From the NCBI GenBank assembly GCA_022072085.1, contig JAJVII010000011.1, forward strand, positions 62,001 through 126,000: a DNA stretch of 64,000 bases. Reading direction: 5' to 3'. Shown here in pieces: positions 8,085-60,104 of this stretch. Source of the DNA: Phycisphaerae bacterium. GTDB taxonomy: Bacteria > Planctomycetota > Phycisphaerae > JAJVII01. Below the pieces are notes generated by a model, which saw only the letters and a program-made list of their open reading frames with translations, was not told where the DNA came from and searched no databases. A program made the translations under genes and the position numbers. Each line of letters begins with the position of its first letter. The first letter of the stretch is position 1.

Positions 8085-9008
8085 ATGAGCGAGCCGGCTG
8101 TCAGTGTGATCGTTCCCGCGTACAACGCCGCCGACGTCGTCGGGCAGGCGCTTCAGTCCGTGCGCGAGCAGACGTTCACCGACTACGAGGTCGTCGTCGT
8201 CGATGACGGGTCGAGCGACGCGACGTGGGAGGTGCTCGAAAAGTGGGCCGGCCAATGGGACCGGCTGCGGGTCTTCCGGGCTGAGCACGCGGGGCTCGCG
8301 GCGGCGCGCAACCGGGCGGTCCGCGAGATGCGAGGCCAGTGGATCGCCCTGCTGGACGCCGACGACCTCTGGCTGCCGGACAAGCTGGCGCGGTGCATGG
8401 CGTTCCTGGCCGACCACCCCGACCTGAGCATCGTCTACACGCCGATGGACCCGGTGACCGCGGACGGCCACCCGATGGCCGGGCACAGCAAGCCCTGCCA
8501 CGCGGGGCAACTCACGCGGCGGCTGTTCGAGTCGATCTTCGTCCACGACCCGGCGGTGGTGTTCCATCGACGGGTGATCGACGCGGTCGGCGGGTTCGAC
8601 GAGTCGCTGCCGGTCTGCGTCGGGCACGAGTTCTGGCTGCGGGTTTCCACGCAGTTCGAGTTCGGCCTGATCGACGAGCCCCTGGCCCTGCGGCGGTGGA
8701 CCGACGCGAGCCTGACGCGGCGGAACCGGTCGCGCGGCATGGCCATCAAGGCGCGGATGCTGGAGCGGTTCTACTTCGAGAAGGGGGGCGCCCGGCTGCT
8801 CGACCGCCGCGAGGCGATCGGCCGCATCGCCCGCGTCTACTACAGCGCCGGCAAGATCCTCACGCGCGAAGGCAGCCCGCGCCGCGGCATGGAGCATATC
8901 GGCCGGGCGATCGGCTATCGCAAGTCACTGCTGAAGGCGTATCCCTTCTGGCTATGGGCGGGGCTGCGCTCGCTGATGGGGCGCGACGCCAACGCCCCGG
9001 CCGGTTGA
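8085..9008 (+). CDS. Family 2 glycosyltransferase
   Basis: The 307-residue protein has a GT-A fold: VSVIVPAYNAADVVGQALQS at the N-terminus, EVVVVDDGSSD for nucleotide-sugar binding, and ALLDADDLWLP with the metal-binding DAD. The acceptor-side segment contains GGFDESLPVCVGHEFWLR, where the ED-like pair lies. No membrane helix is obvious, so the enzyme is probably cytoplasmic or peripheral. The C-terminal 60 residues are basic and helical. The substrate cannot be named. Its divergent partner asnB and the nearby sulfotransferase suggest a role in surface glycan synthesis. The promoter geometry suggests leaderless translation. Confidence 0.92.
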   Translation: MSEPAVSVIVPAYNAADVVGQALQSVREQTFTDYEVVVVDDGSSDATWEVLEKWAGQWDRLRVFRAEHAGLAAARNRAVREMRGQWIALLDADDLWLPDKLARCMAFLADHPDLSIVYTPMDPVTADGHPMAGHSKPCHAGQLTRRLFESIFVHDPAVVFHRRVIDAVGGFDESLPVCVGHEFWLRVSTQFEFGLIDEPLALRRWTDASLTRRNRSRGMAIKARMLERFYFEKGGARLLDRREAIGRIARVYYSAGKILTREGSPRRGMEHIGRAIGYRKSLLKAYPFWLWAGLRSLMGRDANAPAG

Positions 9009-50974: not shown

Positions 50975-52228
50975 CTATCGGGTGCGGCGCCGGAACATCT
51001 TGCCGGCGAGGCCCAGCCCGCCCAGGACCAGAAGCGTCAGGCTCGCGGGCTCGGGAACTGACACGTAGGTGAATCGCGAATGGTCGGCCAGGTTCGCACT
51101 GTCGACGGCGTAAAGCGCGCCGTACCAGTCCACGCGCTGGCCGATCGTCAGGCCGTCGCCGGTGCCGAAGTAGGTGGAATAGACGGTGCCCCCGAAGATC
51201 GTCGTCCAGGAGGTGGTGTTTCCGCCGCCCAGGATGAATTTTCCGTGCGTCTCCCAGTTGATCAGCGTGGCCAGGTCAGACGCCTGGCTGAGGGGCACGA
51301 AGACGCCGCCCGTTCCCGCGCCCTTGACCTGGAGCAGGGTGTCCTGTCCGAACGTCGCATTGCCGACGACGTAGAGGTTGATCGGCAGGCCGCTGGTCAG
51401 GTCGATGTTCAGCGTGAGCCCGCCCCCGGTGTTGATGGAGGAGAAGTAGTAGTCGCCCGAGGTCAGGTTCACCGTGTGGTTCAGAGTTGTGGTCAGGGCG
51501 GCCCAGTGGCCGGGCGCGACCGTGCCGGACGGGTCGCTCAGGGCGGTGACGCCGGCCGAGAAGCTTGTCGGCGTCGGCAGGGTGACCGCGGCGAATGTCT
51601 TTGTGGAGCCGAGCGCGGCCGGAGCGGCCGGGTTGGACCCCGTGATCGCCGGTCCCCACGACACCCCGTTGACCAGGCCGTCGACGTGAGCGCCGCCGTT
51701 GCGGCTGAAGCTGCCCGTGTACTCGAGGTTCCCGCCGAGCCCGGCGACCTTCTCGATGCCGGCGTTCTGACTCAGCGTGACGTTCTTCGTGTAGACGTTG
51801 CCGTAGACGTGATCGGCATTCACGGGATTGGCGTCGCCCCCGAAAGAGACCGACCCGTTGACCACCACCTCGACCGACAGCGCCGGATAGACCGCGCCGA
51901 TGGAGATGAATCGCGTGCCGCTATCGAGATCCGGGCCGGCCGTCACGCCGTTGCTTCCGACGTGCACCGTGCTGCCGGGGGTGAAGTTGCCGCCGGCGTA
52001 CACCGACCCGTTGAGCTGCGTGTTGCCCTGCCCGTCGACGTTGCCGTTGCTGCCGACATCGCCGTTGACCAGGTTGTGCCCGCCAATCGAGAGATTGCCG
52101 CCGGAGAAGATCGCGAATTCGCTCAGCGACTTGGTGACCGGGGCCGCGTCGGCCGACGCTGCAACAGCCAGCACGCCGAACATCGCCGCCAGGGCCAGGA
52201 CCGTGATTCCGATCTTCCGGGATCGCAT
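50975..52228 (-). CDS. PEP-CTERM protein with choice-of-anchor A domain
   Basis: The 417-residue protein has a signal peptide (KIGITVLALAAMFGVLAVAA). A choice-of-anchor-A-type domain follows: SEFAIFSGGNLSIGGHNLVN, GDVGSNGNVDGQGNTQLNG, SVYAGGNFTPGSTVHVG and YYFSSINTGGGLTLNI. The C-terminus is VPEPASLTLLVLGGLGLAG then KMFRRRTR, the PEP-CTERM sorting signal (Val-Pro-Glu-Pro, helix, basic tail). Exosortase would cut it and anchor it to the surface or exopolysaccharide; no exosortase is in the window. A σ54-type promoter is predicted at 52448-52463, another possible one at 52490-52505. Confidence 0.9.
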   Translation of the reverse strand: MRSRKIGITVLALAAMFGVLAVAASADAAPVTKSLSEFAIFSGGNLSIGGHNLVNGDVGSNGNVDGQGNTQLNGSVYAGGNFTPGSTVHVGSNGVTAGPDLDSGTRFISIGAVYPALSVEVVVNGSVSFGGDANPVNADHVYGNVYTKNVTLSQNAGIEKVAGLGGNLEYTGSFSRNGGAHVDGLVNGVSWGPAITGSNPAAPAALGSTKTFAAVTLPTPTSFSAGVTALSDPSGTVAPGHWAALTTTLNHTVNLTSGDYYFSSINTGGGLTLNIDLTSGLPINLYVVGNATFGQDTLLQVKGAGTGGVFVPLSQASDLATLINWETHGKFILGGGNTTSWTTIFGGTVYSTYFGTGDGLTIGQRVDWYGALYAVDSANLADHSRFTYVSVPEPASLTLLVLGGLGLAGKMFRRRTR

Positions 52229-52447
52229 AGTCGTTTCCCTTCCCAAGCCGGCCGGGACCTGCCCGGTCCGGCTCGCCTCACCCGTCCATGTTCTCTCCGC
52301 GGCGGTCGGCAACTCGCCACGAAGGAGACCGGACGCACGACGCAAGAAGACAATGAGCCGGCTGCCGCCTCGCGAGGCCAGTCGGTTCGCCTTCGCTCCC
52401 TCCGGCGGGCCAGGCCGACCCCGCCATCACTTGAGCAGGTGAATACT

Positions 52448-54675: not shown

Positions 54676-54853
54676 GGAGGCAGGGGTCTCGCTGTGCGTA
54701 AAGCCTTATTTGAAATAAGCATACATCAACAGCCCTTCCTTCACTTTCTTCCTTTTTCTGGCTTTTTCTTGAAATATCTTGATTTTGTAGTCATAATTCA
54801 AATGTCGCATCGGCCATGTTGCTGATAGCGCTCCTGAGCCGCTCAAAGCGGCT
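54676..54853. other. AT-rich spacer upstream of nadE
   Basis: No gene is seen. CTTATTT-G-AAATAAG (54705-54719) is a perfect 15-bp odd palindrome 30 bp upstream of nadE, a possible operator. The rest is AT- and pyrimidine-rich. GAGCCGCT-CAA-AGCGGCTC at about 54837-54855 is a short hairpin overlapping the end of the BECR-like gene, without a T-run. Confidence 0.45.
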
Positions 54854-55336
54854 CTAGTTATGTACCCCCGCTCGGATGTAACGATTCATCAGGTCTCGCC
54901 TGCGACGATTGCCCTCGATGGCATGAGCGGTTACCAGGTTCCACTCTCCCTGCCTGCCGGGTGCAAGTACGATGCAGTAATCGAAGTCTCTCAGCCAGAG
55001 GTACCGGCAGGTCTGCCGTTGGGCGGTTCCTGGGCCGTCCCATTTCAGGACCGCGGCATCGTCTGCGTTTTCTATGACGGCCCGGAGCCATCGAAGCCTG
55101 ACGGCTCGCTCGGGGTCTATCTGCCTGTTCTCCCCCTGTCCACAGAGATGCCAGAAGCATTCGGGAAGCCCTTCGCTGGCCAGACGCATGTTCAGGTGAA
55201 CCGGCTGCGATTCATAGATGAGTGGTGTCCTCAGGATATCCTTCCGGAAGACGTTTACCAGCATGGCAATTCGATCTGACCGCGACTCTGGAAGATCGAG
55301 TTTGGCTGGCAGCCATGGAGGGGCTTCGCCGCTCAT
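54854..55336 (-). CDS. BECR-fold nuclease-like protein (PBECR-type), coupled to DUF3800
   Basis: The 160-residue protein has the block order I associate with phage-Barnase-EndoU-ColicinE5/D-RelE-like (BECR) nucleases: ASEGLPECFWHLCGQGENRQ, ERAVRLRWLRAVIENADDAA, CRYLWLRDFDYCIVLAPGRQ and WNLVTAHAIEGNRRRRDLMN. Typical members show FWH, RI.W..P.IE, YLW..DY.VVL and L.TAY in this order. His63-type and Arg/Lys residues of the fold are present, but the nuclease activity is not proved. The start (MSGEAPPWLP) overlaps the DUF3800 stop by 4 bp (ATGA), so the two are co-translated. GC content is visibly lower than the flanks. Confidence 0.6.
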   Translation of the reverse strand: MSGEAPPWLPAKLDLPESRSDRIAMLVNVFRKDILRTPLIYESQPVHLNMRLASEGLPECFWHLCGQGENRQIDPERAVRLRWLRAVIENADDAAVLKWDGPGTAQRQTCRYLWLRDFDYCIVLAPGRQGEWNLVTAHAIEGNRRRRDLMNRYIRAGVHN

Positions 55337-56037
55337 GCGCCTTCCCTCGGCTGCCACGCGAGCAAATTGAACTTCCTCTCGCCCAAGGTGGTGGAGCGAA
55401 TCAGGCTGTAGCCGGATCGGGATTGAATCCGCTTGATGACAGCGATTTTGGCGGCACTCGTTTTCAACTCCCTGTTCAAATAGCCAATGGCGCCTATCAA
55501 CAGATCCGTCAACTGGATGAGAGCGGACTCATGTGATCTAACCGGCTGGATTCGTTCCACCATTGTCCCGGCCTTGTCGTACTTGGCTGCCCTGAGGAAC
55601 TTGGCGAGCTTTTGGCCCTTTTGCCAGGTGTAGCTGTCCTTGTAATCGAGGTAAATGCGATACTGCTCCCTTGGGTCCAGAATGACCGAGAGCAGGTGAA
55701 AGAACATCTTGTAATACCAGTCATCGTGGGATTGGGCCCAGGCGTCATGGTCCAGTTGCTTCTTGTTCTGAACGACCACCCCTCTGAAATGAAGGCCGTC
55801 ATTGTCGAAGAAGTAATCGACGAGGTCCAAATAATAATCGAGTTTTGCCTTGGAGACCTTGGTCCACTTGCATTCGCGCCAGGGCGACAGTCCGTGGGAT
55901 CGACGAAGGGAGACCAATCGCTCGGAGATTTCAGGCACTCGGTCGGCCAGGCACCAGACGGCCCCGATAACCATGACGTTGGATTTGTCGCCTTCCAAAT
56001 GGCAACTCTCATCGCAATAGACGTTGAATGTTGGCAT
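55333..56037 (-). CDS. DUF3800 protein (RNase H-like fold)
   Basis: The 234-residue protein starts MPTFNVYCDESCHLEGDKSN, with the DES motif that opens most DUF3800 proteins. It continues VMVIGAVWCLADRVPEISER, KYDKAGTMVERIQPVRSHES and ALIQLTDLLIGAIGYLNREL, where the TDLL segment carries the late conserved Asp. DUF3800 is thought to have an RNase H-like nuclease fold and is often found in mobile or defence-type gene pairs. The frame is open to 56442, but the ATG at 56037 gives the family's usual start. A hand count of one 60-base line inside (55681-55740) gives 48% GC, well below the neighbours. Confidence 0.75.
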   Translation of the reverse strand: MPTFNVYCDESCHLEGDKSNVMVIGAVWCLADRVPEISERLVSLRRSHGLSPWRECKWTKVSKAKLDYYLDLVDYFFDNDGLHFRGVVVQNKKQLDHDAWAQSHDDWYYKMFFHLLSVILDPREQYRIYLDYKDSYTWQKGQKLAKFLRAAKYDKAGTMVERIQPVRSHESALIQLTDLLIGAIGYLNRELKTSAAKIAVIKRIQSRSGYSLIRSTTLGERKFNLLAWQPREGA

Positions 56038-57072: not shown

Positions 57073-58158
57073 ATGAGAGAGAAGAGACTGACCCTGTTGG
57101 CCGGGCTGGCCGTCGTGATCCTGGTCGCGGCGTCGACTGCCCATGCGGACCTGACGCCGACTTACCTGGGTGCATTCAAGTCGCCCCTGGCAAGTTGGTA
57201 CGACGGCGATCTGGCTTTCTATGCCGCGGGCAACAGCGGCGCCGGTTCGCTGTTCATCTCCAAGAACGTCGGCAGCAGCGGGCAGATGCACCGCATTGTC
57301 GAGGTGTCGATCCCCACGCCGGTCATCACGACAAATGGCGACCTGCTGAACGCGGCCACGCAATTGGGGCTGACAAACGGCGACCTGAGCAACGCCCTTG
57401 CGGGCCTGGTCTATCGCCCCGCCGACGGCAAGCTCTACTTCTCGGAATACTCCAGTGCCAACTCGGCGCCGATCCTCATCCGCAGCGTGGCGACGGACCT
57501 GACCGTTGCCTCGCAGTCGGCCAGCGCGCTTTACAGCAAGCCGTGGACCGACGGCGGACGGTCCCTGACGCTTGCTCCGCAGGCCTGGGCCGACACCTGG
57601 ACCGGCGGCTACTCGATGCTCGAACTGGCCAGCAACTCCTACGGCTTGGGCATCCGCGCGATCCATCCCTATGACAGCGGCGCCGGGCTGGCCGATTCGG
57701 TCAACGTGATTGCTTACAGCTCCGGCCATGCGATGACCGGCGGCACCGGCAACTATGCCGCCATCACCTGGGTGGACACCGGCGCCGAGCAGAACATCAT
57801 CGTCGGCGGCCAGCGGTCCAGCGACAGTCACGTCGTCCTCTGGTTCTACCGCGTCAGCGACATCGAAGCGTCGCTGACCAGCGGCAACACCTACAGCGCC
57901 CAGCCCTATCAGGTCATCGACATCAACAGCCTGCTGATCTCCAGCGGCACCAACTGGGGTTCGCAGACCAACCTTTTCGGGCTGGACTTCGACCCGGCCA
58001 CCGGGATGCTCTACGGCTACTCCAGCGCCTACGGAAAGAACACGGCCGTCTACGTCTGGCAGTTGCCCGTTTCCGCGGTGCCCGAGCCCGCGACTCTGGC
58101 GCTGCTGGCGCTTGGCGGGATGGGCCTGTTCGGCGCGACCCGCCGCCGTCGGGCCTGA
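57073..58158 (+). CDS. PEP-CTERM protein, beta-propeller-like
   Basis: The 361-residue protein has a signal peptide (LTLLAGLAVVILVAASTAHA). It begins LTPTYLGAFKSPLASWYDGD, and repeating units such as LAGLVYRPADGKLYFSEYSS, YGLGIRAIHPYDSGAGLADS, YAAITWVDTGAEQNIIVGGQ and NLFGLDFDPATGMLYGYSS fit a propeller. The C-terminus is VPEPATLALLALGGMGLFG then ATRRRRA, a PEP-CTERM sorting signal. It should be exported and processed by an exosortase, which is not in the window. The σ54 promoter is upstream, and a strong terminator is at 58192-58217. Confidence 0.9.
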   Translation: MREKRLTLLAGLAVVILVAASTAHADLTPTYLGAFKSPLASWYDGDLAFYAAGNSGAGSLFISKNVGSSGQMHRIVEVSIPTPVITTNGDLLNAATQLGLTNGDLSNALAGLVYRPADGKLYFSEYSSANSAPILIRSVATDLTVASQSASALYSKPWTDGGRSLTLAPQAWADTWTGGYSMLELASNSYGLGIRAIHPYDSGAGLADSVNVIAYSSGHAMTGGTGNYAAITWVDTGAEQNIIVGGQRSSDSHVVLWFYRVSDIEASLTSGNTYSAQPYQVIDINSLLISSGTNWGSQTNLFGLDFDPATGMLYGYSSAYGKNTAVYVWQLPVSAVPEPATLALLALGGMGLFGATRRRRA

Positions 58159-58853: not shown

Positions 58854-60104
58854 TCAATTGCCGTCAGCGGGCGGGCCGTCGTTCGGAGGGCCGCTTCCCG
58901 GCGGCGGGCCGCCTTCGGGCGGGCCGGCGGGGCCCTGGCCCAGGCCCGGACGCGGACGGAATCGGCCGGTGCGCATCTTCTCGTGCATCGCCCGCAACTC
59001 AGCCAGCGTGACGGCGCCGTCGCCGTCGGTGTCGGCCTGCATCATGCGATCGACCTCGCGGCGGGGTATCTCGTCGCGGGTCAACTTGCCGTCGCGGTTG
59101 CGGTCCAGGGTTTCGAAGATCCGCTCAGCCGGCGGCGGCTGCTGCGGCTGCTCGCCGTCGTCCGGGCCTGCGGGGCCGGGCGGGGGCTGCTGTGGCACTT
59201 CGGGTTGCTGCGGCGGCTGGAGCGGCTGGGCCGGCGGCGCGGGCTGCGGATCCTGCGCGGTCGGCGCGGGCTGGCCTGTCGGCGGGACCACCGGCAACGT
59301 CGCCTGCGGCACGCCCGGAGTCGGCTGGGTCGGGGTCGTCGGCTGGGCCGACGGGGCCGGCGTCGGTTGGGCGGGCGTCGCGGGATTGCCCGACGCGACG
59401 GCCTGGTTGTTGCTCTGCGCGCGGTTGCCGGAGCTGATGCGATAGCCGATCCAGACGGCGGCCAGAATGATCAGCGCGGCCGCGACGGCGGTGGCGATGA
59501 CCCAGCGTCGGCTGGACGCGGCCGCCGCGCCGCGGGCGAACAGGCCGGCAGCGCCGCGTCCGCCCTGGGCGTCCAGCAGGATGCGGTAGACCGGAACCTT
59601 GCCCTGGATGTTGCGGAGTTCCTGTGGGCCGAGGAAAGTGGTCTGGAGTTCGAGACGGTTCTTCACCACGTCGTAGACGGTCTGCGAGATGCAGATGCCG
59701 CCGGGCTCGGCCTTGGCCTGGAGCCGCGAGGCGATATTCACGCCGTCGCCCATCACGTCGTTCTCGCTGAGGAAGACGTCGCCGAGGTGGATGCCGATGC
59801 GGTGCTTGAGCATCTGGTCGCTGGGCAGCTTGGTCTCGGCGTTGGCCAGCGTCTGCTGTATCTTCAGGGCGCAGCTCACCGCCTGGACCGCGCTGCTGAA
59901 GTACATGAGCAGCCCGTCGCCGGTGTTCTTGAGGATCTGGCCCTCGTGGCTTTCGCTGAGGCGGCGCATCATCGCGAAGTCGCGCTGCGTCAGCTTGAGC
60001 GTCTTGGTGTCGTTGACGGACATGAGCTGGCTGAAGCCCACCACGTCGGTGAAGACGATGGCTGCCAGCACCCGGCGGGGATTGGCCTGCGTCGATTCGC
60101 TCAC
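58854..60104 (-). CDS. Adenylate cyclase/EF-hand fusion membrane protein
   Basis: The 416-residue protein joins a class III nucleotidyl cyclase domain (residues about 10-175), a membrane helix, a Pro/Gln-rich linker and two EF-hands. The cyclase has AAIVFTDVVGFSQLM (metal Asp), the second metal Asp in NTGDGLLMYF, and MGDGVNIASRLQAKAEPGGI with the Asn/Arg pair. The helix is WVIATAVAAALIILAAVWIG. The EF loops are DRNRDGKLTRDE and DTDGDGAVTLAE. Ca2+ outside the membrane could thus be linked to a cytoplasmic cyclase. The GTG start has GGGAGCGCCAT before it. The C-terminal tail is rich in Pro and Gly. Confidence 0.88.
   Translation of the reverse strand: MSESTQANPRRVLAAIVFTDVVGFSQLMSVNDTKTLKLTQRDFAMMRRLSESHEGQILKNTGDGLLMYFSSAVQAVSCALKIQQTLANAETKLPSDQMLKHRIGIHLGDVFLSENDVMGDGVNIASRLQAKAEPGGICISQTVYDVVKNRLELQTTFLGPQELRNIQGKVPVYRILLDAQGGRGAAGLFARGAAAASSRRWVIATAVAAALIILAAVWIGYRISSGNRAQSNNQAVASGNPATPAQPTPAPSAQPTTPTQPTPGVPQATLPVVPPTGQPAPTAQDPQPAPPAQPLQPPQQPEVPQQPPPGPAGPDDGEQPQQPPPAERIFETLDRNRDGKLTRDEIPRREVDRMMQADTDGDGAVTLAELRAMHEKMRTGRFRPRPGLGQGPAGPPEGGPPPGSGPPNDGPPADGN

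Follow-up and report, generated by a model that had tools for sequence, protein, structure and literature searches.

A probably horizontally acquired rlfAB/PDC-M04-type gene pair encoding two predicted nucleases in a Phycisphaerae bacterium

In a 64-kb stretch of DNA from a Phycisphaerae bacterium (the window), we identified two overlapping genes, A and B, whose homologues are conserved as a unit, carry conserved predicted active sites and, in many relatives, are linked to type I restriction genes. We favour, with a probability of roughly 0.55, the reading that A and B form a two-gene module of the rlfAB/PDC-M04 type that was gained horizontally and is directed against phages or other mobile elements, with B as the effector and A as its catalytic partner or trigger.

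Position, origin and known names of the pair

Gene A (55333–56037, minus strand) encodes a 234-amino-acid DUF3800 protein, a homologue of PDC-M04A and RlfA that is predicted to adopt an RNase HII-like fold. Gene B (54854–55336, minus strand) encodes a 160-amino-acid homologue of PDC-M04B and RlfB, a predicted metal-independent RNase of the BECR fold. A sequence-only reading of this DNA had described the genes as joined by an ATGA, and translation confirmed this: the stop codon of A and the start codon of B overlap at 55333–55336 on the minus strand, which suggests translational coupling. The motifs listed in that reading are also present in the translations (CDES and LTDLL in A; FWH, RLRW, IENADD, YLWLRDFDY and VTAH in B). 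A stem-loop that can be read from the sequence (GAGCCGCT-TTG-AGCGGCTC; 54836–54854, minus strand) lies where B ends; it is terminator-like, but has no T-run. The pair is present in a single copy in the genome and is chromosomal, lying between nadE and a gene for a putative membrane protein.

Composition sets the pair apart from its surroundings. Its GC content is 55.7%, compared with 68.3% for the window, its GC3 is 0.66–0.72, compared with 0.87–0.95 in the flanking genes, and the 1,184-bp windows with the lowest GC content in the 64 kb all overlap the A–B site. The distribution of the genes is patchy: the model of A matched 3 of 61 related genomes, counting its own genome and two weak matches, and B had a match in 12 of 392 genomes of the phylum. 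Together, composition and patchy presence point to horizontal acquisition. The lower GC content reported in the sequence-only reading was thus borne out, and the gain that it proposed is supported, whereas the view that this gain was recent is just suggested. The window contained no tRNA gene and we found no direct repeats flanking the pair. When we looked for an empty site, the sole genome from the same family had a nadE contig that stops just past nadE, and the neighbouring gene of the pair had no match in five relatives. Two other genes of the window, at 50975–52345 (minus strand) and 57073–58155 (plus strand), encode proteins with PEP-CTERM-like C-terminal sorting tails (VPEPASL or VPEPATL, followed by RRR).

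The pair had been put forward as an undescribed, candidate novel cassette, which is not supported, as both genes are already catalogued. Searches against PADLOC-DB identified A as PDC-M04A (2.9e-90) and B as PDC-M04B (6.2e-26), in the same two-gene order and with no difference at the family level, and all 93 aligned B relatives (93/93) matched PDC-M04B. PDC-M04 is named as a phage defence candidate only, and we found no mention of it in the literature searched. A tblastn search also recovered the pair from phage P1, where it is called rlfA–rlfB, and from P7, where it is called rapA–rapB. The P1 proteins are 48% (A) and 29% (B) identical to those of the window, and the genes have the same order with overlapping starts; the P1 pair differs in being carried by a phage, next to repL/oriL and behind a C1 operator, whereas the window pair is chromosomal. 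Proteins of the DUF3800 family with an RNase H-type fold have been linked to defence in the context of Cas12a2 and other CRISPR loci, according to passages of two papers (PMC10910872, PMC12669027). The DUF3800 proteins in those passages are fused to TPRs or linked to CRISPR, whereas A is a short, stand-alone DUF3800 protein paired with B. Titles and passages of the DUF3800 literature gave no description of a function for the A–B pair. What is new here is the assignment of folds and active sites to A and B, together with the restriction context of their relatives.

Predicted folds and active sites

Consistent with the earlier proposal that A is an RNase H-like DUF3800 protein, A matched the Pfam family DUF3800 (PF12686) with an E value of 3e-15 (57.7 bits, compared with a cut-off of 21), and its AF2 model (pLDDT 93.6) matched RNase HII/H2 structures in a Foldseek search of the PDB (E 1e-5, probability 1.00). 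Four acidic residues were invariant in 72 of 72 sequences. Two of them, D9 and E10, lie in strand 1, whereas D131 is found where strand 4 ends and D178 is part of a helix. We take these residues to resemble the D-E-D-D site of RNase HII, and predict from the model that they form the active site of A.

B had no match in Pfam and no direct sequence match in the PDB, although it matched phrog_16230 (E 1e-10). An AF2 model of B built on 93 sequences (pLDDT 94.8) contains a helix (residues 59–65) followed by a meander of four strands (residues 96–139; strands at 96–102, 109–115, 120–126 and 132–139). H63 and R77 were kept in 93 of 93 sequences, R71 and R80 in 91 of 93, and position 136 was threonine or serine in 92 of 93. 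In the model, H63 sits in the helix and T136 in strand 4, and we predict an active site composed of H63, R71, R77, R80 and T136. By definition, BECR proteins have a helix at the N terminus and, after it, a meander of four strands (PMC3482391), and their characteristic configuration is a conserved histidine in the N-terminal helical segment with a serine or threonine in strand 4 (PMC5512222); B shows both features. It shares the helix histidine, the meander and the strand-4 serine or threonine with known BECR and PBECR RNases (colicin D, RelE/HigB and PBECR2). Thus, both the modelled fold and the active-site pattern agree with the sequence-only view of B as BECR-like, and we predict that B is a BECR-type RNase.

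B nevertheless stands apart from the known BECR RNases: its family is a separate one that conserves three arginines, and it has no significant match in sequence or in the PDB. A Foldseek search of the PDB with the B model gave weak leads (best E 0.02, for 6af4, from a Streptococcus pneumoniae toxin–antitoxin module), including 6af4, 1tfo, 6cp9 and 3u97. We take these to be HigB, colicin D, a CdiA toxin domain and BrnT, respectively, and all to be BECR proteins. The Pfam family PBECR2 did not match B of the window (0 of 1); it was one of the two Pfam families with the largest number of matching B relatives, at 2 of 93 (best E 0.005). Additionally, we found that residue 79 of the window protein, beside the conserved arginines, is a valine (V79; codon 55102–55100), whereas 75 of 93 relatives have a glutamate here. 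This substitution may be relevant for activity, and the full activity of B in the window is therefore not assured.

Conservation of the pair and its restriction context

A profile of A identified 462 genome loci, of which we kept the best 80, from more than 20 phyla, along with 53 viral loci. Of the 127 related loci with enough sequence beyond A, 125 had a homologue of B as the immediate downstream neighbour, which answers the question of whether the pair is conserved in other genomes and shows that the pairing is not due to chance. The two genes were separated by 20 bp or less in all 110 pairs analysed (110/110) and overlapped in 77 of them, with an overlap of −4, as in the window, in 40 pairs and of −1 in 27. 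The distance matrices of A and B were correlated (r = 0.75, compared with 0.29 for the best of 1,000 permutations), indicating that the two genes were inherited together. Judged from these sequence comparisons, A and B are an obligate unit. One apparent exception (G224) was rejected because B does adjoin A there. In another genome (G286), B occurs without A, within a rearranged stretch (L170). Ahead of the lone B at this locus lie a Panacea/SocA-like gene and a P-loop gene resembling zeta toxins (L170:5227–7393), and a duplicate of part of the Panacea-like gene follows downstream (8356–8979). At a further locus, an IS21-like element with two genes (551 and 255 amino acids; L010:8678–11898) splits B and leaves A intact. 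There was no sign of the non-coding RNAs that are linked to other DUF3800 genes: Rfam searches found no RNA family near the window pair and nothing but one tRNA at eight related loci.

These data bear on a plain toxin–antitoxin reading, in which B is a RelE-like RNase toxin that A neutralizes by binding or through the enzymatic activity of its RNase H fold, and defence is at most a side effect. The small, coupled operon, the BECR fold typical of toxins from such systems, and the occurrence of the pair on plasmids, phages and chromosomes all suit this reading, as does the faster evolution of B (mean distance 0.68, compared with 0.50 for A). However, the invariance of the four predicted catalytic residues of A would be unexpected for a purely sequestering antitoxin, B is found without A at L170, and we found a DNA-binding domain in neither protein. 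We therefore regard a passive antitoxin role for A as less favoured than that of an active partner or trigger, given its invariant catalytic residues, and consider the toxin–antitoxin reading as a whole improbable.

Clustering of neighbouring genes revealed one dominant theme, type I restriction, which was confirmed by PADLOC and Pfam. Among the best 80 of the 462 genome loci, 37 contained type I restriction genes, and 5 of the 12 loci of the phylum outside the window also carried them. The gene order hsdM–hsdS–A–B–hsdR was confirmed by Pfam, for example at L018. In 23 of 76 genome loci, hsdS or hsdM ended no more than 150 bp from A, and hsdR opened within 300 bp of the end of B in 9 of 70. 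Thirteen control stretches yielded two loose HsdR- or HsdM-like matches, and the strength of the link therefore rests on this tight adjacency and not on presence within 9 kb. When mapped on the tree of A, the restriction label required 19 changes, and well-supported branches made at least 8 of these unavoidable, which indicates repeated gain or loss of the link. A few of the loci without type I genes contained a type III methylase or DISARM- or BREX-like helicases.

The slot between hsdS and hsdR is known to host PrrC (PMC3874165), TgvAB (PMC11411939) and DarTG2 (PMC12255303), and pairs in relatives occupy the same slot of the type I operon as PrrC in EcoprrI, TgvAB, DarTG2 and RloF, although these proteins are, as far as is known, unrelated to A and B. 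This raises the possibility that a type I enzyme, by physically associating with the A–B complex, keeps it silent, as in a PrrC-like guard, until the enzyme is disabled by a phage inhibitor, whereupon B would cleave tRNA or another RNA; stand-alone copies would then act in trans or be relics. Tight nesting after hsdS and before hsdR in the loci counted above is consistent with such a guard, as is the slot shared with prrC. EcoprrI keeps PrrC sequestered, and T4 infection sets it free (PMC3874165; PMC2610378). By contrast, the majority of genome loci, 45 of 52 viral loci and P1 contain no type I genes, the slot also hosts autonomous modules, and the ABC ATPase domain of PrrC has no counterpart in A–B. 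PrrC-type nesting is seen in many relatives, but neither in most pairs nor in the window, and the genome of the window has no match to HSDR_N. A guard is the most interesting of the rival explanations, but it leaves unexplained the many pairs that stand alone, those of P1 and the window among them, and we consider it unlikely. On another contig of this genome, we observed a single, weak HsdS-like specificity domain (25.4 bits; G000:C42:7345–7803).

The sequence-only reading had also asked whether the pair sits in defence islands. Relatives are indeed found in defence loci, whereas the window copy stands alone: its neighbours include no restriction or other defence genes save one weak match to a nucleotide cyclase, and we rejected a defence-island reading for the window itself. 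The matching gene (58857–60104, minus strand) encodes a protein that resembles class III nucleotide cyclases and has a proline-rich linker and an EF-hand-like tail. PADLOC weakly assigned it to PycC, the Pycsar cyclase (2e-10); it is probably an ordinary regulatory cyclase.

Phage P1 and the proposed mechanism

The P1 pair provides a further view of function. It follows repL/oriL and has a C1 operator (Orlf) upstream of the promoter predicted for it, and the P1 record annotates rlfA and rlfB as 'possibly associated with lytic replication'. This context suits a role in the lytic phase at least as well as defence of the lysogen. It also favours an accessory function in replication or RNA processing, in which, in line with the P1 gene names, A would clear primers or R-loops while a mobile element replicates and B would trim RNA, to the benefit of the element and not of the host. 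Against this, rlfA and rlfB were non-essential, and hence dispensable, for P1 in a genome-wide CRISPRi screen (PMC10695390). The rlfA–rlfB–pmgF segment is one of eight variable regions, of low GC content, in P1-like plasmids (PMC9603915), and at times gives way to other open reading frames, among them, in one case, that of a putative antibacterial toxin (PMC6906374). The accessory reading is weakened by the fact that the pair is dispensable and variable and that 37 of 80 genome loci are linked to restriction, and we consider it the least probable of the alternatives.

We return to a defence module as the preferred explanation. In the mechanism that we infer, B would be a metal-independent RNase of the BECR fold and the probable effector, silent or harmless in healthy cells. 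A would be an RNase HII-like, metal-dependent nuclease produced in step with B, which may recognize or cut an RNA-containing structure derived from the invader, such as an RNA–DNA hybrid, and thereby control B. Where the module lies behind hsdS of a type I operon, as in many genomes, it occupies a slot that other back-up defences use, and so it may act once restriction fails. A more specific version, which we put forward as a long shot, is that the RNase H2-like A senses or processes RNA–DNA hybrids of invaders and so licenses B to stop translation, an unrecognized mode of immunity that would operate both alone and as a back-up to type I restriction.

These findings give a testable identity to rlfA and rlfB, unexplained genes of a classic phage, and to the defence candidate PDC-M04. 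They describe a predicted BECR RNase and an RNase HII-like partner that stay together in over 20 bacterial phyla and have repeatedly entered type I restriction operons. If the preferred reading is true, the pair would constitute a widespread two-nuclease defence module.
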